From an uncultured Bacteroidota bacterium (GTDB taxonomy: Bacteria; Bacteroidota; Bacteroidia; Chitinophagales; Chitinophagaceae), in NCBI GenBank assembly GCA_903929195.1, contig CAIYTT010000042.1, positions 1-64,000 of the forward strand: a DNA stretch of 64,000 nucleotides, read 5' to 3'. Both the position numbers and the translations under genes were made by a program. A model generated the notes under the pieces. The model did no database searches and had not been told where the DNA came from. It saw only the letters and a list, made by a program, of their open reading frames with translations. Shown here one piece after another: positions 31,341 through 60,348 of this stretch (the first letter of the stretch is position 1; every line of letters starts with the position of its first letter).

Positions 31341-31892
31341 GTGGACAAAATACGGAAGATGAGAAAAAATAAAGAGAAAAACTACATAGTTGAAGAAAAT
31401 AATGAACAGGAAACACAACTAACAGAACCCTATTTTGCAAATTATTTACCTATACAATCTATAGCAGCAAAAACGATAGGTATTATGGGTTTAAATAAAG
31501 AAAAAGAATTTAGAACTATACAAAATGAGAGTGATTTAATAGGGGTAATACGCTCCGGAATACCTAAAAATGCAATGACTAACATGATGAATATCGCAAA
31601 TTTATCGTTGGTAGAAATGGCGAATATCATACATACCACAGATAGAACATTAAGAAGGTACACTGATAATGAAAAATTATCTTTAGACCAATCTGAAAGA
31701 ATTGTAGAATTAGCAAAGTTATATGCACGCGGCGAGGAGGTATTTGGCAATTTAAATAACTTTAGGGAGTGGATGGATTGTAAATTAATGGTGTTAGGCA
31801 ATAAAAAACCCAAAGAATATTTAGATACCTGTATAGGCATAAACATGCTTATTGAAGAATTAGGTAAAATTGAAAACGGAATTTTTGCTTAA
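31341..31892 (+). CDS. ParS/Xre/MbcA-type antitoxin (DUF2384)
   Basis: 183 residues from a GTG at 31341; the ATG at 31359 (MRKNKEKN) is an equally good start. The central helix-turn-helix-like part reads LSLVEMANIIHTTDRTLRRY. The C-terminal DUF2384 part is GNLNNFREWMDCKLMVLGNK, then PKEYLDTCIGINMLIEELGK. It binds DNA and masks the RES toxin whose gene overlaps by one base (TAATG). It lies 36 bp behind purF on the same strand. Confidence 0.93.
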   Translation: MDKIRKMRKNKEKNYIVEENNEQETQLTEPYFANYLPIQSIAAKTIGIMGLNKEKEFRTIQNESDLIGVIRSGIPKNAMTNMMNIANLSLVEMANIIHTTDRTLRRYTDNEKLSLDQSERIVELAKLYARGEEVFGNLNNFREWMDCKLMVLGNKKPKEYLDTCIGINMLIEELGKIENGIFA

Positions 31893-32347
31893 TGGTCGTA
31901 TATAGAATAGCAAAAAAAGAGTTTATTGAAGACCTAAGCGGCAAAGGGGCAGCCATGTTTGGTGGTAGATGGAACAGTAAAAATACTTATATTGTTTATA
32001 CTGCCGAAAGTAGGGCATTAGCTTTGCTTGAAAGTTTGGCTCATATAGGAAAAATTCAGGGTAGTATTTTTAGTATAGCCTCTATTTTTATTCCTGATAA
32101 TTTTATTGATATTATTCTAAAAGAAAATTTATCTCCTTATTGGTACAGTAACCCACCACCCGACTATTTAAGAATTATTGGAGATAATTTTATTAAAAAC
32201 AAAAAAAATCTTGCACTAAAAATTCCATCTGTAATTGTACCCGATGAGTATAATTATTTATTAAACCCATCGCATATAGAATTTAATAAAATAAAAATTA
32301 TGAATGTACAAGCTCTTGCATTAGATAAAAGATTACTTAATGAGTAG
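31892..32347 (+). CDS. RES-domain toxin (NAD+-consuming)
   Basis: 151 residues. VYRIAKKEFIEDLSGKGAAM, FGGRWNSKNTYIVYTAES and RALALLESLAHIG give the Arg, Tyr/Glu and Ser positions of the RES fold, an ADP-ribosyltransferase-like domain. Characterised RES toxins such as those of the MbcT/ParT/Res-Xre families destroy NAD+ or modify a target by ADP-ribosylation. The catalytic residues look intact, so the pair is probably functional. It is directly beside the methyltransferase-kinase operon, forming a defence island. Confidence 0.93.
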   Translation: MVVYRIAKKEFIEDLSGKGAAMFGGRWNSKNTYIVYTAESRALALLESLAHIGKIQGSIFSIASIFIPDNFIDIILKENLSPYWYSNPPPDYLRIIGDNFIKNKKNLALKIPSVIVPDEYNYLLNPSHIEFNKIKIMNVQALALDKRLLNE

Positions 32348-32946: not shown

Positions 32947-33903
32947 TTATTCTAAATGAGGTAAAGTAGTTTCTCTAATCGCTTTCAAAATATCAGTATA
33001 TTTCCTTAGGTTTTTTCTTATGTGAATGCAAGTATCTTGATTAAATTTCTCCGGATGTTGTCCATCTTTTTTTGAAATAATTAAATATTCAATTCCATCA
33101 ATAGTATCACTTTTCGCATGGGCTAAATCATTTCGAATATCTAAGACATCCTTTTTGTAGTTAGAATAAAAGTCAATAAACGGTTCTGTGTTCTGTAACT
33201 GTTTTATTTTAATCAATCGGCCTATCGTACGAGCTTTTTTATCGGCATCAAAAACTCTTTCCTTTAATATCTCAGCGTTTTTATGTTCATGTAATTTGTT
33301 AGCTCGATCACAATTTGACACCGATGACTTAATGACTGAATCAATGATATATGTTCTTATTTTCTCTGTATCATCATTGTTATCGGCTAAGAAACAGGAT
33401 AAAATTTCTATTATTGTGTTGTCAAGTTCACTTGTTTCCGCCATTACCAGCCCCCTAATACTATTAATTTCTTGAAGTTTTGATATAGTCAATTCAATTA
33501 GTCGAAAAGTTCTGCTTCTAAATTCCCTCATACCTTCATCTCCCACCAAACTAAAAAATGATACCCTATCACGATATAAATTTTTTGCGATTTCATCAAA
33601 GTTTTTTTGGGCAGAATAAAACAAGACTTCAGTAAAAACCCCACCATCGCGAATCTTTTGGATAAGTACATCGCCCTGCTTTTCCTTTTCTTTTCCCTTT
33701 TCATCAATACTATAATCGGATAGTATTAGATCATATTTGGTTGATTTTAAAGATTCTTCTGCTTTATTACTATCTTCAAATGTATCAATTAGTGGTATAA
33801 ATCCGAGATTTTCTAAAAAAGAAAGAAATTCCGATTTAATTCCCATTTCAATATAGTCCTCTATATTATCATCTATCCAAAGTATTTTATAGCTCAATTT
33901 CAT
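32947..33903 (-). CDS. Receiver-domain protein with C-terminal HEPN-like module
   Basis: 318 residues. Residues about 1-125 form a response-regulator receiver: ILWIDDN gives the acidic pair D11/D12, LILSDYSI gives the phospho-acceptor D63, and FYSAQ gives the switch Ser97. The usual Lys of strand 5 is not seen (FFSLVGDEG). There is no DNA-binding domain. Residues about 150-310 are helical, and DIRNDLAHAK at 255-264 carries R257-x4-H262, the HEPN ribonuclease motif. The start overlaps the upstream ATPase gene by 4 bases (ATGA). I infer a phosphorelay output that may cut RNA; the HEPN call rests on the motif and helical pattern. Confidence 0.85.
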   Translation of the reverse strand: MKLSYKILWIDDNIEDYIEMGIKSEFLSFLENLGFIPLIDTFEDSNKAEESLKSTKYDLILSDYSIDEKGKEKEKQGDVLIQKIRDGGVFTEVLFYSAQKNFDEIAKNLYRDRVSFFSLVGDEGMREFRSRTFRLIELTISKLQEINSIRGLVMAETSELDNTIIEILSCFLADNNDDTEKIRTYIIDSVIKSSVSNCDRANKLHEHKNAEILKERVFDADKKARTIGRLIKIKQLQNTEPFIDFYSNYKKDVLDIRNDLAHAKSDTIDGIEYLIISKKDGQHPEKFNQDTCIHIRKNLRKYTDILKAIRETTLPHLE

Positions 33904-36578
33904 TTTTTAAATTTTAAAATAAATTCAACACCTTGTTTAAGCTTGTTGTTGACTGAAATTTCTCCTCCCATTTTTTCAATTACTTCTTTTGTGTGATATA
34001 GACCTAAGCCTGACCCATTGGTCGTAGTAAATCTCGGGTCAAAAATTCTTTGTAAATACTTATCTTCTATTCCCTTACCATCATCCAAAATATGCAAAAT
34101 AATTTCTGATGTACTAATACTTTCCCAACTAATGTTGACATTTTTTGCATTTGCTTTTAATGAATTATTTAAAATGTTATCCAAAATAATAATTAATTCA
34201 ATTGGTCTAAAAGAACAATCAAAAATAATATTTTGAGGGGTAGTTGCAGTCATTCTTAAATTTTGATTATTCATAATAAAATGACTATATTCCTGATAGA
34301 CATTTAGAACATATTCATTTACAAACTTAATCAAATCTGCATGTATTTTGGTAACAGTAGTGTCGAACTGTGCTTTTGTAACAAATCTTGATAATGTAAT
34401 TATCTTCTTGTTTTCAAAGGAAATTTTGCTGGCTAATTTTAATAATTCGTCTTTAGGTGAATCTTTGTTGATTGAATCAACTAATTGTTCAATATAAGCA
34501 GTAATATGTTGTGCTGAATGCCTGTATATATGATGTTGAATACTCAATAGGTCATCTTTCTCTGTACCTCTGTCTGCTTTAGAAAACAGTGTTTCAGATA
34601 TTTGTTGTTCTAATTCCTGCTTAAGTGCAGGTATTTCGATTTCCTTTAATCTATTTGTTTCTTTTTCTGCCTCGAATCGCCTATTCTTTTCTTCAATAAC
34701 CCTCTGTTCTGCAACTTCTTTTTGAGATTCAAGCAGTTGAATAATTTTTTTTTGTTCTTCTTTTTCTTCTTTTTCCTTCTCTAATTTTACTTTAAGTTCT
34801 TCGATAATTTGAGTCTGTCTTACAATCGTTTCTTTATAATATTGTAATTCCGTAATAGCCTTTGCAGTAGCCTCAGTTGTCGTATATTTAGAAAAATCTG
34901 CAAGCTGTTTTTCTAAATCTTTATTTTGCTCTGCTTTTTTCTGCAAAATTCTATTTAGAACATCAACATCAATTTTTTTGTTTTCAAAATCTGAAATTAA
35001 TTGTTCAAACTCTCGTTCTGAGTTCTTTTTCTCTTCATTTATTTTGTCAAGAATGAGATTTTCGTTAATATAAATCTTTATTACGGTATCTGCTTTTGCC
35101 GAAATAATTGAATGTATTGAAGCATAAATTCTTTTTCTTTTTGTTACATCATCCTCACGAAAAACTAAATCATTTTCGTTAGTCTCGCCAGATATAATCT
35201 TCTTCTCTATGTCGCTAATTTTATCCCTATCGTCTTCAGGAATACTATCCCAAGCAAGGCCATCTACAACATATTTTTCAAGTCGTTTAAATATCTTAAA
35301 AAAGTAGCCATTTTTTTGCTCAGTTAACTTTTTATAACTTTCATTTTTTATAATCCCTTCTCGACTTGATATAACCTTAAAATCGTTTTCCGAATCTAAA
35401 ATTTCAATTCTACCAACTAATTCTCTTTGACCTAAAAATCTAGCATACCCTTGCCCTTTTCTTAATTCTAAATTTAACCAATCATCACCAAATTCACCAT
35501 AGGGGGGAACACGAAAACCATTTAAAAAAACATAAATTGATCCATAATCAATGGGTCGCACACCTGTTTGTTTAGTGAAAAATGCTTTGGTGTATGGATT
35601 TAAGTAATAAAGTATGATTTTTACGTTTTTTATTTCAGGATAAAACTCGTTTTTTTCTTTTATCCAAAAAATTATTTGCCCCTTATCCTTTAATTCTGTA
35701 TATATGACTTTGCCTCCATCAATAATATTACTCTCAATACTTGTTGTTTTGAAATCTAATTTTTCAAAAATAGAATTTTCAACTTTTCCAATAAATTTTT
35801 CTTCATTTTTTTTTCTTTCATTTTCCCCTTCAAAACCCATTACATTTAAGTAAATGCCAAAATCACTTTTTTCAAATGCTTGGTTAGGATTTATTAATTT
35901 CTCTAAATATCTTTTTAAATCTATTAATTTTTTTGTGTCCCAATCAATAATAGTCCCTGTTTCATTTTTTACTGGATAAACCCATTTGCTCCTTAATTTT
36001 ATTACCTCTAAAACAACTCCTTGTTGAAATGGCGCAATTTTATATTCAAATAATTCATTCTCATTTAAAATGTCATACTTTATGGCGATAGATTGTATTT
36101 CTTTATCTTTATCATTTTCAATTTCAAAAGCTTTCCAATCAATGAAAATTTTTATATAGTTTTCGCTATTTTTCTGTTTTGTATAAAGGTTTAAAAACTC
36201 CCCCAATCTATCACAAGAAAATCTTCCAACTCCTTTTGCACCGGCCATCATTCTATTGTGCTGCCTCGTATTATTTTTTTTTTCTGAGTAGGCAATATTT
36301 AGCCATTTATCTTTGATGTCAACAAGACTCATCCCGACACCATCATCTTTAATAATTAATCTTGAAGTAAAATCAGTAAAATTATTATTGTTTGTAAGAT
36401 TGTTATCATCTGAATTTTTAAGATTGACAAATGTGATATCTACTTTTTTAGCGTCAGCATCAAATGAGTTTTTTACTAGTTCTAATATAGCAATATTATC
36501 ATCATTGATAAGATCTTTACCAATGATGCTTTTAAGTTGAACATTTGTTTTGAAGTGTAAATCTATATTAGTATCCAT
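33900..36578 (-). CDS. Dual GHKL ATPase: MORC/Hsp90-like plus histidine-kinase module
   Basis: 892 residues from the ATG at 36578, chosen because it overlaps the methyltransferase stop by one base (TGATG); an upstream ATG at 36611 would lie inside that gene. N-terminal GHKL ATPase: ELVKNSFDAD (33-42, Mg-binding Asn37), KDDGVGM (77-83), GAKGVGRF (113-120). Residues about 510-665 are a long charged coiled coil. A DHp-like helix follows (SIQHHIYRHSAQH, 679-691, candidate phospho-His), then a second GHKL domain with ILDNILNNSLK (798-808), DDGKGI (832-837), IFDPRFTT (845-852) and GSGLGL (855-860). Probably senses DNA or invader state and signals to the receiver protein. Cytoplasmic, no membrane helix. 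Confidence 0.9.
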   Translation of the reverse strand: MDTNIDLHFKTNVQLKSIIGKDLINDDNIAILELVKNSFDADAKKVDITFVNLKNSDDNNLTNNNNFTDFTSRLIIKDDGVGMSLVDIKDKWLNIAYSEKKNNTRQHNRMMAGAKGVGRFSCDRLGEFLNLYTKQKNSENYIKIFIDWKAFEIENDKDKEIQSIAIKYDILNENELFEYKIAPFQQGVVLEVIKLRSKWVYPVKNETGTIIDWDTKKLIDLKRYLEKLINPNQAFEKSDFGIYLNVMGFEGENERKKNEEKFIGKVENSIFEKLDFKTTSIESNIIDGGKVIYTELKDKGQIIFWIKEKNEFYPEIKNVKIILYYLNPYTKAFFTKQTGVRPIDYGSIYVFLNGFRVPPYGEFGDDWLNLELRKGQGYARFLGQRELVGRIEILDSENDFKVISSREGIIKNESYKKLTEQKNGYFFKIFKRLEKYVVDGLAWDSIPEDDRDKISDIEKKIISGETNENDLVFREDDVTKRKRIYASIHSIISAKADTVIKIYINENLILDKINEEKKNSEREFEQLISDFENKKIDVDVLNRILQKKAEQNKDLEKQLADFSKYTTTEATAKAITELQYYKETIVRQTQIIEELKVKLEKEKEEKEEQKKIIQLLESQKEVAEQRVIEEKNRRFEAEKETNRLKEIEIPALKQELEQQISETLFSKADRGTEKDDLLSIQHHIYRHSAQHITAYIEQLVDSINKDSPKDELLKLASKISFENKKIITLSRFVTKAQFDTTVTKIHADLIKFVNEYVLNVYQEYSHFIMNNQNLRMTATTPQNIIFDCSFRPIELIIILDNILNNSLKANAKNVNISWESISTSEIILHILDDGKGIEDKYLQRIFDPRFTTTNGSGLGLYHTKEVIEKMGGEISVNNKLKQGVEFILKFKK

Positions 36579-37798
36579 CAATTTACCATTTCTTTTAAAA
36601 CTATACCACATTGTTCCCCAAATAATGGTGGTATGGCATTGCCTATTTGTGAATACCTCGGCACTTCTTTTGTTCTTAATTTCCCTCCTGTAGTATATTT
36701 CCCCTGAAACTCATACCAGTCAGGGAAACTTTGTATCCTTGCATATTCCCGTACTGTTAAAATCCTCGGTTCGCTGTAGTGAATATAATCATCGGGTAGA
36801 GTAGTAATTGTTGGGCTTTTTTGTACCCCGTCCAAAGGAATTACAGTATGTTTTTTTATATTATACCTCTGCCTGAGGTCTTTAGAAACGTCTTTGTTTT
36901 TTCTGCCGCTATCACTAATTATTGCCAGAAATTTTTCTATAATATCCGGTCTGTGTTTCGGGAATCTATGGCTGTCGGCAATTTCTTTGTCCACCCCCTT
37001 TCGCATAAATACCTGATAAGGGCTATTCTGTTTTGAATACGTACCTGCCTGATAGCTTTTTGTATCCGGTGATTCGCGTAACTCGTTTTCTTTCAATAGG
37101 TCGGATATCGCATCCTGCAAATTGCTGTCAATACTTAAATTCTTTTCATTCAGGAAAGAACAAGTATTAGCTTTAATCGTATAGAAGAAATTGGCTACCA
37201 GTTCTTCTGATGCTTTTGGAATATCTTTCCTTACACCCACCAGAATAAACCTCGTTCTTTTCTGCGGGATACCGTATTCTCCAAAATTAATCAATTCTCC
37301 TTTTACATAATAACCAGAATCTTCAAGCGATTTTTGAACAAATAACGAATATTCCTTGCCTTTATCTCTGTTTTTTTTAAATTCCAACGTAAAACCCTTT
37401 ACATTCTCAAAAAAAAGAATTTTGGGCTTTACTATTTCTATAAAATCAATGTAAGATTTAATAAGGTTATTTCTGTGGTCGTTTTCATTGCGTCTGCCAG
37501 CCATTGAAAACCCTTGACAAGGTGGGCCTCCAGCTACAAGATCTACTTTACCTTGTAAATCTTTTAATTGTTCTTTATGTTTTTCAATTACTGCTTCAAT
37601 CTCTAAATGGCCGGGTTCACCTAACCATTTTGGCCAATTAAAATGACTTTTCTTATCAATTAAATTATGTTTTAGTGTTTTAAAAGCATCAGGGCTTTTT
37701 TCTATGGCAAATAACCCTTTCCACCCTGCATTATACAGACCGAGCGACAATCCACCACATCCTGCAAATAAGTCAATATAAGTCGGGTTTTTGTTCAT
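36578..37798 (-). CDS. C5-cytosine DNA methyltransferase
   Basis: 406 residues with all main m5C motifs: I DLFAGCGGLSLG (9-20), IV GGPPCQGFS with catalytic Cys94, VI ENV (131-133), VIII QKRTR (179-183), and X RYSQIGNAIPP (381-391). The target-recognition region spans about 190-340. It transfers a methyl group from SAM to carbon 5 of cytosine in a short DNA target that cannot be read from sequence. It is the first gene of a three-gene operon, and no restriction endonuclease gene adjoins it. Large palindromes lie directly upstream of its start. Confidence 0.95.
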   Translation of the reverse strand: MNKNPTYIDLFAGCGGLSLGLYNAGWKGLFAIEKSPDAFKTLKHNLIDKKSHFNWPKWLGEPGHLEIEAVIEKHKEQLKDLQGKVDLVAGGPPCQGFSMAGRRNENDHRNNLIKSYIDFIEIVKPKILFFENVKGFTLEFKKNRDKGKEYSLFVQKSLEDSGYYVKGELINFGEYGIPQKRTRFILVGVRKDIPKASEELVANFFYTIKANTCSFLNEKNLSIDSNLQDAISDLLKENELRESPDTKSYQAGTYSKQNSPYQVFMRKGVDKEIADSHRFPKHRPDIIEKFLAIISDSGRKNKDVSKDLRQRYNIKKHTVIPLDGVQKSPTITTLPDDYIHYSEPRILTVREYARIQSFPDWYEFQGKYTTGGKLRTKEVPRYSQIGNAIPPLFGEQCGIVLKEMVN

Positions 37799-54162: not shown

Positions 54163-57100
54163 TTAATTTTTAATAAATCTAACAGTTTGCATTTTAATAC
54201 CGTTTTTAATACACGTTACAAAATAACAACCGGTTGCAAACCCATGTAAATCAATCTTGTCAATGTTTTTAATTTGTTTTGTAGAAGACACAACCCTACC
54301 ATATACATCACATATTTCTAATTGTACATTATCCATATTATCTGTATTGATTACAATATTTACATAATCTAAATTTGTAGGATTTGGATATAAAGAAAGA
54401 ACCGGTATATCTGTATTGTGAATTGTATTTGTACCAAGTGGTGTGTTTACATACGTTTTTTGCATACAACCGTTCAGCATGGTAATTACCCAATAATACT
54501 TAGTAATAAAATTAGGTGTAGTATTCGTATAATATTGATTTATTTCACCGGGTATCAATGTTGAATCAAGCGTTAAAGCGTCATCATAACCCCATTGATA
54601 CGAATCTTCAAGTGCTTTTTGGCAAATAAATTGTGGGTATGAATAAAATACTTCCGGAGTATCAGAAACTGCATTAGCGGCAATATATGCCACAAAAGAG
54701 TCTTTTGCAGAGCACATTGCACCACTTTGATGTGCAGTTAGATAGACTACCCCTTTACCTGCGGAATCAAAATTAACTATACAATATTGTTTTGTAGTTC
54801 CTGTTGCCCATACAGTCGCATTATTAGATGTCCACTGATAATCAACACCGGGTATAGGTGTAGTGGTTCCAAAATTTTGATACATCGTATTGGTGCAAAG
54901 TAAATTAGGCGGCATTGTAGTTATTTTTACAGTAAGATACGGGCTAATTACAACTCTTACGGGTTCTGTATTTGTACAACCATTTGCACTAATAGTATTT
55001 AAATACACAACAGAAACAGTATCTGCCGTTGTATTTACCAATATCTCATTTATGGAGTCAATACCGGCTCCGGCACCATTAGATACACCGCTTACAACAG
55101 GGCGAACCCAACTAAAAGTAGCACCGGGAATACTACTGCCAGGTACATAATAAAATAGTGTACTATCACAAATTCCGGGTGGCGTAAGCGAGGTATTCAA
55201 AACCGGTTTAGGGTATATTTTAACTGAATCTGTCGTGAAATTTTTGCAACCATTAATTGATAATGTGTCTATGTAGAAAACAGTTACAGGTACAGATGTT
55301 AGATTAATTAAGTATTCGTTCGGGCTACCGCTACCGGAAGCAGGGGGATTACCAATACTACCATTTGCAGGACGATACCATGTAAAAACGACACCGGCAG
55401 TAGAACTGGAATCAATATAACTAAATAAAGCACTGTCGCAAATAGGTTGCGGTGGAACAATATTAGTTAATAATGGTTTTGGATTTACGGAAACAGAAAT
55501 TGTTTGAACATTTTTACAACCATTTAGTGTTAAGGTATCAACATAAGTAACCGTTATAGGATTGATAGTCGTATTTACCAATCTTTCATTGATATTGCCC
55601 GAACCGGTATCGGCAGGATTCGTTATTCCCGCTACTAAAGCCCTACTCCAAGAATAAGTAGTACCAACTGTTAAACTTGAATCTATATAAGTAAAAAGAG
55701 CACTATCACAAACAGAATGCGGGCTAAGTGTACTGCTTAATACCGGCTTAGGATTTACGATAACAGTATCGGGTTGGTAGCTTGCACAACCTGAAATTGT
55801 AAGAGATGTTAGATAAACAACATTTATTGGATTTGCAGTCGTATTTACGAGTACTTCATTTATGGAATCACCACCACTTGCAGCAGGGTTACTAATACCG
55901 GCAATACTATCTCTATGCCAATATAAAGTAGTACCCGTTGTACCACTCGATAATACATAGGTATAAAGTGTACTGTCGCAAATAGTGCTTGTAGCTACTG
56001 ATGTTGTTAATGTAGGTATTGGGCTTACATTTACCCTTATAGTATCTGTATTTACACAACCATTTGCTTTAATAGTATCAATATAGATTACAGAAACCGC
56101 ATGTAAAGTAGTATCTAGTAATACTTCACTAATATTACCGGTATCACTGTTTGCCGGATTACTGATGCCAACCATGGCAGCTCTACTCCATGCAAAAGAA
56201 ACACCGGGTGCTAAACTACTATCCGTATAATGAAATGTAGCACCGGCACAAATTGAGAACGAATTAACCGTATTACTTAGCGATAATTTTGAGTTCACAA
56301 CTACTGTAATCGTCTCAAAATTGATACAACCGTTTGCGTGTAATGTATCTATATACGTTACTGTTATAGGTAAAAAAGTTGTATTAATAAGATATTCATT
56401 AATATCACCTATACCGCTTGCAGCCGGATTACTTATTCCCGTAACCGTATCTCTGCTCCAAGTAAAAGTTGTTCCTGTAGTAAAACTCGTATCTAAATAA
56501 GAAAACAAAGTGCTATCGCAAATAGAGTGTGGCGTAAGTGTACTACTCAAATTAGGTTTTGGGTTTACTGTAACTGTTAATTGTTGTGTGTTTTGACATC
56601 CATTAGCAGTGAGTGTGTCAACATAAATAACATTGACAGACGAATATGTCGTATTTACTAGATATTCAGAGGGATTGCCCACACCTGATGCAGCAGGATT
56701 AGTGATACCGGCTGTAAATGCACGACTCCAAGAATAGGTTGTACCACTAACCAAACTTGAATCTAAATAACTGAATAAATTGCTATCGCAAATTGTAGCC
56801 GACATAACTACATTACTTAGAATAGGTTTAGGATTTACAGTAACTGTAATAGGTGCAAAATTTTGACAACCATTAATTGTAATTGTATCTATATAGGTAA
56901 CTGCAATCGAATTGAGAGTAGTATTATTTAAGTATTCATTGGGGCTGCCAGTGCCACTTGCAGCGGGATTCAGAATTCCTGCAACTGTAGTTCTACTCCA
57001 AGAATAGGTTACACCTGTAGTTAAGCTGGAATCTAAATAAACAAATAGCGTACTATCGCATACGGTTGTTGACGTAATTATATTATTAATAAAAGGCTTA

Positions 57101-60100
57101 GGATTAACAGTAACCTGAACTGCTTGGAAATTACTGCAACCATTTGCATACAAGGTATCAATATAGGTAACAACAATCGGGTTAGTTGTCGTATTTTCTA
57201 AATATTCATTCGGATTTCCAATACCACTTGCAGCCGGATTAGTGATTCCTGTTAGTATATTTCTACTCCAAGCAAATGTAGTACCTGTGGTTAAGCTGGA
57301 ATCTAAGTAACTAAATAAAGTACTATCGCAAATAGGAGTAGGTGCAAGTGTGTTACTAAGTGTAGGTTTCGGATTTACAACAACACTAACTGTTGCAATA
57401 TTACTACACCCATTTGCAGTTAAAGTATCAACATAAACAACTGTTATAGGAGCAACAGTACTATTTACAAGATATTCCAATGGATTGCCAGTACCGGATG
57501 CAGCAGCATTTGTGATACCTGTTTGCAAAGCACGGCTCCAACTAAATACTGTACCAACTGTTAAGCTTGTATCTAAATAGCTAAACAAAGTACTATCGCA
57601 AATAGCAGCAGGTGCAATTGTGTTACTTAGGGTAGGTAATGGGTTTATTGATATAGTAAACGTACGAGATATACCCGGACAACTATGTGCAGTTGGTTGC
57701 ACCGTAATATTGGCTGTTAAAATAGTATATCCGCTATTCGTAGAAGTAAAACTTAAATTACCACTGCCACTTGCCAACAAATCAATACTTGTATTGTCAT
57801 TTGTCCAATTGTAAACACTTGATAAATCACTTCCGGTAAAATTGACAGTGTCTATTGTTGTAGCACAAAATGAATGAGAAGCAATAAAATCAATTGTTGG
57901 TATTGGGTTCACACTTACAGTTAACAAGGCAGTGCTACTACAACCATTTGTTGTTCCGGTTACCGTATAAGTAATTGTACTTGTAGGGTTCGCTGTTTCA
58001 CTTGCATCGGTAGAAGTTGATAACCCTGTTGTAGGAGACCAGGAATAGGTTGTACCCCCACTTGCACTTAGGGTTGTAGAATTACCACTACAAATAGTAA
58101 CATCGCCACTTGATGTAATAATTGGTAGCGGATTTACACTTACTGTTAGCATTGCAGTATTGCTACAACCACTTGTAGTACCTGTAACCGTATAGGTTGT
58201 TGTACTTGTTGGATTCGCAGTTACACTTGCATCGGTAGAAGTTGATAACCCTGTTGTAGGAGACCATGAATACGTTGTGCCTCCACTGGCATTTAGAGTT
58301 GTTGAAGTACCACTGCAAATCGTAACATCTCCACTTGTTGTAATAATAGGAATCGGATTTACACTTACGGTTAGCGTGGCTGTACTACTACAACCACTTG
58401 TTGTCCCTGTAACTGTATAAGTAATAATACTTGTTGGGTTTGCTGTTACACTGCCGCTAGTACTACTCGATAAATCCGTTGTTGGTGACCATGAGTAGGT
58501 TGTTCCTCCACTTGCACTTATTGTAGTTGAATTACCTGTGCAAATAGCAACATCTCCACTTGTTGTAATGGTTGGTAATGGATTTACACTTACAGTTAAC
58601 GTTGCTGTATTATCACACCCGCTTGTTGTTCCGGTTACTGTATAAGTTACCGTACTTGTAGGGTTTGCTGTTACACTTGCATCGGTAGAAGTTGATAATC
58701 CGGTTGTAGGGGACCACGAATACGTTGTACCCCCGCTGGCACTTAGTGTTGTTGAAGTACCCGAACATATCGTAACATCTCCACTGGATGTAATAATGGG
58801 TAGTGGGTTCACACTTACAGTTAGTGTGGCAGTATTATCACAACCACTTGTTGTTCCGATTACCGTATAAGTAACAGTACTTGTTGGGTTTGCTGATACA
58901 CTGCCGCCAGTTGAACTTGATAAATCCGTTGTGGGAGACCATGAATACGTTGTTCCTCCGCTGGCACTTAGGGTTGTTGAAGTACCGGAACATATTGTAA
59001 CGTCTACACTTGTTGTAATGGTTGGTATCGGGTTCACACTTACGGTTAACATGGCAGTGCTGCTACAACCACCGGTAGTTCCGGTAACGGTATAAGTAAC
59101 AGTACTTGTTGGGTTTGCTGTTATACTTGCATCGGTAGAAGTTGATAATCCGGTTGAAGGAGACCATGAGTAGGATGTACCTCCACTTGCAATTAGGGTT
59201 GTAGAATTACCTGAGCAAATAGCAACATCTCCGCTAGTGGTAATTGTAGGAGAAGGATTCACACTTACTGTTAACGTTGCAGTATTATCACACCCGCTTG
59301 TTGTTCCGGTTACCGTATAAGTTACCGTACTAGTAGGGTTTGCTGTTACACTGCCACTTGTTGTACTTGATAAATCCGTTGTGGGAGACCATGAATACGT
59401 CGTTCCACCACTAGCACTTAGGGTTGTTGAAGTACCCGAACATATCGTAACATCCCCACTGGTTGTAATTGTAGGAATCGGGTTTACACTTACAGTTAGT
59501 GTAGCAGTATTATCACACCCGCTTGTAGTTCCTGTAACTGTATAAGTAACAGTACTTGTTGGGTTTGCTGTTACACTGCCGCCAGTTGAGCTTGATAAAT
59601 CAGTTGTGGGAGACCATGAGTAGGTTGTTCCTCCACTTGCACTTAGGGTTATTGAAGTACCCGAACATATCGTAACGTCGCCACTTGTTGTAATAGTGGG
59701 TAGTGGGTTAACACTTACCGTTAGTGTGGCAGTATTATCACACCCGCTTGTTGTACCGGTAACCGTATAAGTAATCGTACTTGTAGGGTTTGCCGTTACA
59801 CTTGCATCCGTAGAAGTAGATAATCCTGTTGTAGGAGACCATGAATAGGTTGTTCCTCCACTTGCACTTATGGTTGTTGAATTACCTGTACAAATAGCAA
59901 CATCACCGCTTGTTGTAATTGTAGGAGAAGGGTTTACACTGACTGTTACAATAATTGTATTTGTATTTGTACCATCACTAATTTGTATTGTAAAATTATC
60001 TGTACCTACATAACCGATTGTAGGGGTATAAATAAGACCTGAAGGCGTATTAACACCTACAACTTCAGGTGCAATAAAATCAAAGCCTGATAAGGAACCA

Positions 60101-60348
60101 TTTGTAGGATTTGCAGCTATTGACCATGTGTCGGATGGTCCACTGGCTACATCGGTTACGCTTAATAAAGAACTAATATCAAACGAAGTAGAACTTGTAC
60201 ACATAATAAAATTTGCACTAGTACCTGAAACAAATGTAGGACCTTGTGCAAGTACTCTATTTCCAAAAAGAATTAACATTAATATAATCGAAAAAATGCC
60301 AATACTTTTTACAAAACGTAGCCATTGTATCAGAAAAAATTTAATCAT
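54163..60348 (-). CDS. Giant repetitive T9SS-secreted surface protein
   Basis: 2061 residues. Signal peptide with a long hydrophobic core (about 14-34, ending VLAQ); N-terminal cadherin/VCBS-like domain (35-138). Array 1 is nine 75-residue units (139-813), each with a CSG or CTG Cys, TYSWSPTT and TLTVSVNP. One PKD-like unit follows (814-901). Array 2 is ten 90-residue PKD/Ig-like units (902-1801, ICDSTLFSYLD and NGC). A divergent module (1802-1889) and a C-terminal T9SS type A sorting domain (about 1980-2061: LSLYPNPT, DVYGRVV and VRFIKN) end it. Expected to be exported across both membranes and anchored on the cell surface. Probable adhesin or gliding-type filament. Confidence 0.92.
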   Translation of the reverse strand: MIKFFLIQWLRFVKSIGIFSIILMLILFGNRVLAQGPTFVSGTSANFIMCTSSTSFDISSLLSVTDVASGPSDTWSIAANPTNGSLSGFDFIAPEVVGVNTPSGLIYTPTIGYVGTDNFTIQISDGTNTNTIIVTVSVNPSPTITTSGDVAICTGNSTTISASGGTTYSWSPTTGLSTSTDASVTANPTSTITYTVTGTTSGCDNTATLTVSVNPLPTITTSGDVTICSGTSITLSASGGTTYSWSPTTDLSSSTGGSVTANPTSTVTYTVTGTTSGCDNTATLTVSVNPIPTITTSGDVTICSGTSTTLSASGGTTYSWSPTTDLSSTTSGSVTANPTSTVTYTVTGTTSGCDNTATLTVSVNPSPTITTSGDVAICSGNSTTLIASGGTSYSWSPSTGLSTSTDASITANPTSTVTYTVTGTTGGCSSTAMLTVSVNPIPTITTSVDVTICSGTSTTLSASGGTTYSWSPTTDLSSSTGGSVSANPTSTVTYTVIGTTSGCDNTATLTVSVNPLPIITSSGDVTICSGTSTTLSASGGTTYSWSPTTGLSTSTDASVTANPTSTVTYTVTGTTSGCDNTATLTVSVNPLPTITTSGDVAICTGNSTTISASGGTTYSWSPTTDLSSSTSGSVTANPTSIITYTVTGTTSGCSSTATLTVSVNPIPIITTSGDVTICSGTSTTLNASGGTTYSWSPTTGLSTSTDASVTANPTSTTTYTVTGTTSGCSNTAMLTVSVNPLPIITSSGDVTICSGNSTTLSASGGTTYSWSPTTGLSTSTDASETANPTSTITYTVTGTTNGCSSTALLTVSVNPIPTIDFIASHSFCATTIDTVNFTGSDLSSVYNWTNDNTSIDLLASGSGNLSFTSTNSGYTILTANITVQPTAHSCPGISRTFTISINPLPTLSNTIAPAAICDSTLFSYLDTSLTVGTVFSWSRALQTGITNAAASGTGNPLEYLVNSTVAPITVVYVDTLTANGCSNIATVSVVVNPKPTLSNTLAPTPICDSTLFSYLDSSLTTGTTFAWSRNILTGITNPAASGIGNPNEYLENTTTNPIVVTYIDTLYANGCSNFQAVQVTVNPKPFINNIITSTTVCDSTLFVYLDSSLTTGVTYSWSRTTVAGILNPAASGTGSPNEYLNNTTLNSIAVTYIDTITINGCQNFAPITVTVNPKPILSNVVMSATICDSNLFSYLDSSLVSGTTYSWSRAFTAGITNPAASGVGNPSEYLVNTTYSSVNVIYVDTLTANGCQNTQQLTVTVNPKPNLSSTLTPHSICDSTLFSYLDTSFTTGTTFTWSRDTVTGISNPAASGIGDINEYLINTTFLPITVTYIDTLHANGCINFETITVVVNSKLSLSNTVNSFSICAGATFHYTDSSLAPGVSFAWSRAAMVGISNPANSDTGNISEVLLDTTLHAVSVIYIDTIKANGCVNTDTIRVNVSPIPTLTTSVATSTICDSTLYTYVLSSGTTGTTLYWHRDSIAGISNPAASGGDSINEVLVNTTANPINVVYLTSLTISGCASYQPDTVIVNPKPVLSSTLSPHSVCDSALFTYIDSSLTVGTTYSWSRALVAGITNPADTGSGNINERLVNTTINPITVTYVDTLTLNGCKNVQTISVSVNPKPLLTNIVPPQPICDSALFSYIDSSSTAGVVFTWYRPANGSIGNPPASGSGSPNEYLINLTSVPVTVFYIDTLSINGCKNFTTDSVKIYPKPVLNTSLTPPGICDSTLFYYVPGSSIPGATFSWVRPVVSGVSNGAGAGIDSINEILVNTTADTVSVVYLNTISANGCTNTEPVRVVISPYLTVKITTMPPNLLCTNTMYQNFGTTTPIPGVDYQWTSNNATVWATGTTKQYCIVNFDSAGKGVVYLTAHQSGAMCSAKDSFVAYIAANAVSDTPEVFYSYPQFICQKALEDSYQWGYDDALTLDSTLIPGEINQYYTNTTPNFITKYYWVITMLNGCMQKTYVNTPLGTNTIHNTDIPVLSLYPNPTNLDYVNIVINTDNMDNVQLEICDVYGRVVSSTKQIKNIDKIDLHGFATGCYFVTCIKNGIKMQTVRFIKN
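54946..57645 (-). repeat. Ten tandem 270-bp coding repeats (array 2)
   Basis: Ten units of 90 codons, each starting NPKP (or NPLP/SPIP) and containing ICDSTLF, WSR, NPAASG, NEYL and NGC. Units are diverged, with only these anchors constant, so the array is older than array 1. Confidence 0.9.
57910..59934 (-). repeat. Nine tandem 225-bp coding repeats (array 1)
   Basis: Nine units of exactly 75 codons with no length change. Units differ at only a few residues (for example TGLSTSTDAS versus TDLSSSTGGS, and GCDN versus GCSS), so they were copied or homogenised recently. DNA identity between units is high enough to allow slippage or recombination. Confidence 0.95.

Follow-up and report, generated by a model that had tools for sequence, protein, structure and literature searches.

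The window analysed here, a stretch of 64,000 nucleotides from an uncultured bacterium of the Chitinophagaceae (positions 1 to 64,000 of contig CAIYTT010000042.1, GenBank assembly GCA_903929195.1), carries on its minus strand three adjacent genes coding, in the order of transcription, for a C5-cytosine DNA methyltransferase, a protein with two GHKL domains that resembles a histidine kinase (the dual-GHKL kinase), and a protein in which a receiver (REC) domain is followed by a HEPN-like domain, hereafter called REC-HEPN. The methyltransferase gene occupies positions 36578..37798 (406 aa; DNA_methylase, 2.6e-56), the kinase gene positions 33900..36611 (903 aa as listed, with a probable start at M12, base 36578) and the REC-HEPN gene, the third of the operon, positions 32947..33903 (318 aa). 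A TGATG (36576-36580) joins the stop codon of the methyltransferase gene to the probable start of the kinase gene, and an ATGA (33900..33903) joins the kinase stop to the REC-HEPN start, overlaps that make translation of the three genes as one operon likely. A first-pass annotation of the same DNA had already pointed to an open reading frame (ORF) at 32947-33903, which is real, although the strand was left unstated: the start codon lies at 33903 and the stop at 32947, and the plus strand of this interval is crowded with stops. That annotation also left out the operon with the kinase and the methyltransferase, as well as the closest prior art (PMC8011034).

The search for other receiver-HEPN fusions, as had been proposed there, yielded 14 further REC-HEPN proteins from one genome-contig scan, viral-contig scans and phylum and order searches: L001, L018 (the same gene as L003), L011-L017, L110-L112 and, from viral contigs, L108 and L109. 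Together with the window protein they form the set of 15 to which the counts below refer. Matches below about 41 bits covered the receiver part alone and were set aside as ordinary response regulators. The system is sparse, being found in 8 of the 395 genomes of the phylum sample, and diverse, with two homologues sharing 57-62% identity with the window protein and the other 12 sharing 21-32%. Fourteen columns of the 15-protein alignment are invariant, namely M1, D63, G77, R85, F95, Y96, K142, R150, G151, R257, N258, A261, H262 and R296. NCBIfam returned generic receiver or kinase names only, and phmmer and hmmsearch comparisons with solved structures found no relative.

The C-terminal domain (residues 143-318, 32950..33477) is likely to belong to the HEPN superfamily. 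It contains the motif R257-N-D-L-A-H262 (codons 257-262, 33118..33135), which corresponds to the R-x4-6-H motif of HEPN domains (usually RNxxxH) and is the predicted RNase active site. Seven positions of the domain are invariant, and four of them, R257, N258, A261 and H262, lie inside these six residues. The residues read by the first-pass annotation (D11, D12, D63, S97 and R257-NDLA-H262 in the context DIRNDLAHAK) agree exactly with the translation, and R257 and H262, on whose conservation it had staked its HEPN proposal, are kept in all 15 proteins. The AlphaFold2 (AF2) model of the full protein (predicted local distance difference test, pLDDT, 82.5) comprises the receiver, helices 146-172, 177-193, 198-206, 220-233 and 245-261, a hairpin and helix 289-313, with the RNxxAH motif placed at the end of helix 245-261 in an all-helical module. 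Modelling of residues 143-318 alone with the 15 sequences gave a pLDDT of 87.4, and when this model was compared with 990 chains, three of the best four were HEPN toxins: 7bxo (Z 7.0, 3.0 Å, 101 residues), 5yep (Z 6.9, 3.3 Å, 99 residues) and 7ae6 (Z 6.8, 3.8 Å, 107 residues), the last being named as a HEPN toxin in the comparison table and the first two being HEPN/MNT toxin-antitoxin pairs. The predicted fold is a helical bundle compatible with a HEPN domain, although Z values of this size can arise by chance for such bundles.

Profile comparisons point in the same direction. HEPN_MAE_28990 (best 0.0023) and HEPN_Swt1 (best 0.044) are two of only three Pfam families that match the C-terminus of more than one homologue. 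Alignments of HEPN_MAE_28990 and HepT were built from fetched genomes and compared with the REC-HEPN family profile using hhalign, which placed RN--AH on RN--AH or RN---H (P 0.0011 for HEPN_MAE_28990 and 0.017 for HepT), while reversed, column-shuffled and unrelated controls gave P 0.23 to 0.93; the match to the HEPN_MAE_28990 profile spans only 22 columns around the motif. The resemblance to a HEPN active site that had been suspected in the helical region is therefore also found when whole families are aligned. From what is known of the HEPN superfamily, whose RNases are metal-independent and have a dimeric active site, the intact motif predicts RNase activity. Foldseek searches of the PDB with the full model retrieved only receivers, and a Foldseek comparison with viral models found nothing. 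The invariant residues K142, R150, G151 and R296 lie outside the motifs of the two domains, where REC and HEPN join and within the final helix, and may be a hinge or second active-site residues.

The receiver domain (residues 1 to ~140, 33484..33903) has the acidic pair D11/D12, the phospho-acceptor D63 and S97. Response_reg (PF00072) was matched by 10 out of 10 homologues (best 6.6e-8), the window receiver itself scoring 19.4 bits, under the 30.2-bit cut-off, and the receiver part of the model matches the REC domains of PorX, ComE and PmrA with Z of about 14. While D63 is invariant, position 11 is occupied by D in 13 proteins and by E in two, and position 97 by S in 14 and by T in one. No DNA-binding domain was detected by Pfam in the REC-HEPN proteins, in keeping with the initial remark that no such output domain follows the receiver.

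The dual-GHKL kinase consists of an N-terminal HATPase_c_3 domain of paraMORC/MutL type (3.1e-23), a middle region with a coiled coil, an H-box and a C-terminal HATPase_c domain (4.9e-22). Its H-box segment, Q692-H693-H694-I695 (34527..34538), includes the candidate phosphoryl donor H693, which is invariant in the 15 kinases together with I695, and so are N816, D843, G845 and G866/G868/G870 of the C-terminal domain, with G847 being kept in 14. The motifs of the N-terminal ATPase (N48, D89-G91-G93 and G124-K126-G127-G129) are present in all 14 homologues covering them, so that the GHKL N-box, DxGxG and GxKGxG by which paraMORCs are recognised occur here along with an adjacent C5 methyltransferase. 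The middle region after the GHKL domain, where paraMORC ATPases have an S5 domain, is conserved among the homologues as well. By its H-box, which reads HHI or HQI, the kinase is a distinct subfamily at the sequence level.

The gene coding for the kinase directly precedes that of REC-HEPN in 15/15 loci, and a C5 methyltransferase gene adjoins in 13/13 of the loci in which its position is readable; this count leaves out L001, which begins inside the kinase gene, and L109, where there is no methyltransferase upstream and the locus ends just past REC-HEPN. In L015 and L016 the methyltransferase gene is convergent and in L112 divergent, which shows that the set stays together despite changes in order. 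Pairwise distances are correlated between receiver and kinase (r 0.868) and between receiver and methyltransferase (r 0.711), with none of 5000 permutations reaching values as high, though shared species ancestry may contribute. Some relatives have genes coding for HNH_2 and Vsr proteins beside the operon (L014). In one locus (L012, 2911-5622) a gene coding for a 903-aa NB-ARC/NACHT protein lies directly upstream of the methyltransferase gene.

The operon is flanked by purF and a RES-Xre toxin-antitoxin pair on one side and by an aldehyde dehydrogenase gene on the other. The pair, a RES-domain toxin and an Xre/MbcA/ParS antitoxin encoded on the plus strand at 31341-32347, stands directly beside the operon and is kept in a sister species (L144). 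In this species of the same genus (G002, about 91% DNA identity), homology to the window ends at positions 32335 and 38115, and the place of the operon beside RES-Xre is taken by genes coding for a TIR-like (0.0011) and an Mrr-like protein (Mrr_cat, 0.00074; L144, 4387-5369), which suggests, from sequence similarity, a variable site of the defence type. The difference between the two species includes a rearrangement and does not amount to a clean empty site, since the flanks are on different contigs and tuf lies nearer. Two of the homologous loci come from viral contigs: in L108 (6493-10906) the kinase and REC-HEPN pair is accompanied by a methyltransferase, and in L109 (7612-10930) it is located beside prophage portal, terminase and PAAR moron genes. 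No close homologue was found by TBLASTN in plasmid records with the window, L014, L017 or L109 protein, or in phage records with the window or L109 protein. The 2023 PADLOC models contain no confident match for the kinase or REC-HEPN (best E 0.0064 and 0.0086, respectively), the methyltransferase alone matching well; the PADLOC model PDC-M60C (E 0.0086) was dropped as a candidate, the similarity being a weak one to the receiver only, with no match to any partner gene. A system that is mobile, occurs sparsely, is carried by phages and gives way to other restriction-type genes fits a role in defence better than one in housekeeping regulation. Elsewhere in the window, a gene on the minus strand (54163-60348) codes for a 2061-aa surface protein with many similar repeats and a sorting-like C-terminal tail.

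A search with the kinase alignment also revealed operons with a related kinase and a methyltransferase that lack REC-HEPN. Three of them (L041, 10980-12354; L042, 10639-12049; L043, 6043-7411) contain instead a gene for a receiver-like protein of 231-240 aa followed by one for a protein of 217-240 aa with invariant GHG and SCxSN motifs. The stretch bearing these motifs is covered by weak matches to Peptidase_C25 (E 0.12) and caspase-2 (E 1.8), which suggests a putative caspase-like His-Cys dyad. In a further locus (L048, 9839-10918) there is a 359-aa receiver with a different C-terminus, in which PTCDF resembles a motif of PF19192. Response regulators of the PF19192 family (L044, 7203-8846; L045, 7370-9004; L046, 8197-9783; L047, 7035-8762) have in common a C-terminal domain that is marked by an invariant Y-x2-C-x4-CD motif and is perhaps another effector. 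The idea that every receiver of this class ends in a HEPN domain was rejected, as no RNxxAH-type motif occurs in L044-L047, in the short receivers of L041-L043 or in L048. The kinase gene of L043 (7413-9913, G488) is split into two ORFs, with two TAG and two TAA codons in the match, and is evidently a decaying copy. Judging from these few loci and weak similarities, the third operon slot would be a place for different killers.

Taken together, these features make it reasonably probable that the operon encodes a restriction-linked, presumably anti-phage phosphorelay which activates a HEPN RNase. In such a system the methyltransferase would mark the DNA of the cell itself, while the N-terminal paraMORC/MutL-type ATPase of the kinase would probably clamp DNA and recognise that it is foreign or unmethylated, or that the methyltransferase has been lost. 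This recognition would switch on the C-terminal histidine kinase through H693, from which the phosphoryl group would pass to D63 of the receiver. The phosphorylated receiver would then release or dimerise the HEPN domain, so that R257 and H262 could form a composite active site, and cutting of cellular RNA would lead to arrest of the cell, by which the spread of the phage would be stopped in the manner of an abortive infection. This proposal is based on the invariance of R257, N258, A261, H262 and D63, on the resemblance to HEPN toxins and the profile match with its negative controls, on the conservation of H693 and of the N and G boxes of the kinase, on gene adjacency and co-varying distances, and on the copies in viral contigs, the variable locus, the caspase-like candidate in the third slot of sister operons and the precedent of VcSduA (PMC12137116).

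Several results weigh against it. The Z scores of the HEPN fold, about 7, are modest and lie in a range where helical bundles match by arrangement alone, and a Foldseek search of the PDB with the C-terminal model found nothing significant. Neither the ORF list nor Pfam gives a restriction endonuclease in the window operon. In canonical receivers the lysine of strand 5 couples phosphorylation to switching. This residue, which the first-pass annotation had reported missing, is indeed absent from all 15 proteins, with no Lys at columns 114-121 around the predicted strand 5; being absent in every homologue, it is a trait of the family and no sequencing slip, and it provides the main ground for doubting a textbook switch.

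Three other explanations have to be weighed against an anti-phage phosphorelay. The operon might be an addiction module of the restriction-modification (R-M) kind, in which the kinase monitors methylation of the host DNA, and loss of the methyltransferase, not phage infection, is what causes the REC-HEPN RNase to kill or stall the cell. The methyltransferase is a constant companion of the other two genes and the sole modification enzyme, the window operon lacks a restriction endonuclease, HNH_2 and Vsr genes are added in some relatives, and the operon adjoins a toxin-antitoxin pair, all of which would suit addiction; yet the restriction/TIR-like pair at the same edge in the sister species suggests a defence site, and a GHKL DNA sensor suits invasion equally well, so that we regard addiction as an unlikely account, albeit one that does not exclude defence. 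Another explanation takes the receiver as a structural or ligand-binding module that is not switched by phosphorylation, with the kinase-like ATPase contacting the HEPN domain directly and so activating it. Besides the missing lysine, this would agree with the receivers without kinases that have been proposed in other conflict systems (PMC8195603; Cam2, PMC11229360). Unlike in those cases, however, a kinase with invariant H693 and intact N and G boxes adjoins at every locus, and the receiver retains D63 along with the acidic pair and S97; phosphorylation is still favoured because of this adjacency and of the invariant D63, and we consider an unswitched receiver quite unlikely. It is very unlikely that the C-terminal bundle merely resembles HEPN and serves dimerisation or nucleic-acid binding without RNA cleavage in a protein controlling the expression or activity of the methyltransferase, as, although the fold scores are under the level excluding chance for helical bundles and R-M regulation was proposed for an analogous system in 2021 (PMC8011034), conservation in the domain is highest exactly at the catalytic R and H of HEPN and at N and A of RNxxAH, residues which a purely structural bundle would hardly keep at 21% identity.

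Most response regulators exert their effect through transcription or second messengers. A receiver-gated RNase toxin driven by a kinase that also contains a DNA-type GHKL ATPase, if the proposed phosphorelay is real, would make phosphotransfer a direct immune trigger and would provide systems of the HEF_HK/Response_reg_2 type described in 2021 with a testable kind of effector. If HEPN and caspase-like proteins are exchanged between sister operons, two-component signalling would join CBASS and type III CRISPR as a modular form of immune sensing in which a single sensor type serves many killers. As a broader and more tentative possibility, histidine-kinase phosphorelays may make up a general type of phage immunity whose killers are interchangeable, in which a DNA-clamping paraMORC ATPase-kinase guarded by a methyltransferase phosphorylates receivers linked to a HEPN RNase, a caspase-like protease (encoded beside a short receiver in the sister operons) or a domain of the PF19192 branch.

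The closest known system is that described by Bellieny-Rabelo et al. in 2021, in which HEF_HK kinases (PF19191), most of them with an N-terminal HATPase_c_3, are paired with Response_reg_2 proteins (PF19192) near genes coding for C5 methyltransferase, Vsr and HNH_2, and which was proposed to be paraMORC-derived and R-M linked (PMC8011034). The main text of that paper mentions neither HEPN nor any RNase and names no output domain. The window operon is similar in having a C5 methyltransferase, a kinase with HATPase_c_3 and HATPase_c and an adjacent receiver, with Vsr and HNH_2 in some relatives, but its proteins do not match PF19191 or PF19192 at E up to 1, and PF19192 has no match anywhere in the genome from which the window comes. 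The PF19192 proteins fetched for comparison (L044-L047) are 528-575 aa long and have another C-terminal domain, against 318 aa in REC-HEPN; the H-box of their partner kinases reads HEF (His then E/D) in place of HHI or HQI, and the strand-5 lysine, absent here, is reportedly kept in them. Given the lack of family matches, the other receiver C-terminus and the different H-box, the window operon is best viewed as a parallel branch outside PF19191/PF19192.

In the HEPN RNases of the MAE_28990/Swt1-like and HepT families (PMC3710099) the RNxxAH motif lies at a helix end of a helical bundle, as it does in the model of the window protein, whereas the HEPN-like domain of the window forms one protein with a receiver, which has a cognate kinase. 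In a text search, the survey by Anantharaman et al. (2013) contained no REC-HEPN fusion, only a receiver sharing an N-terminal transmembrane domain with another HEPN family, and it describes fusions of Ymh-HEPN domains to paraMORCs in R-M operons (PMC3710099). These fusions are the nearest functional analogy to the window operon. Both they and the paraMORC/MORC R-M systems of Iyer et al. (2008; PMC2292703) resemble the window operon in placing a GHKL ATPase domain at the N-terminus of a protein from a restriction-type operon, with an RNase as the final effector in the Ymh case; in the window operon, by contrast, ATPase and histidine kinase form one protein while a second, the receiver protein, carries the HEPN domain, so that the signal would pass between them by phosphotransfer. 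In VcSduA, a Shedu protein with a GHKL N-terminus, a paraMORC-type ATPase controls a nuclease in a validated phage defence, but there it is part of a single protein with a PD-(D/E)XK nuclease and no kinase, receiver or methyltransferase (PMC12137116). Literature text searches combining HEPN with receiver or response-regulator terms, the coverage of which left out most subscription papers and preprints, found no description of REC-HEPN. The DefensePredictor paper (PMC13092281) names HATPase and REC as predicted defence domains. Compared with these systems, what is new here is the predicted HEPN output, the distinct kinase subfamily and the sister operons with the putative caspase-like pair in the third slot.
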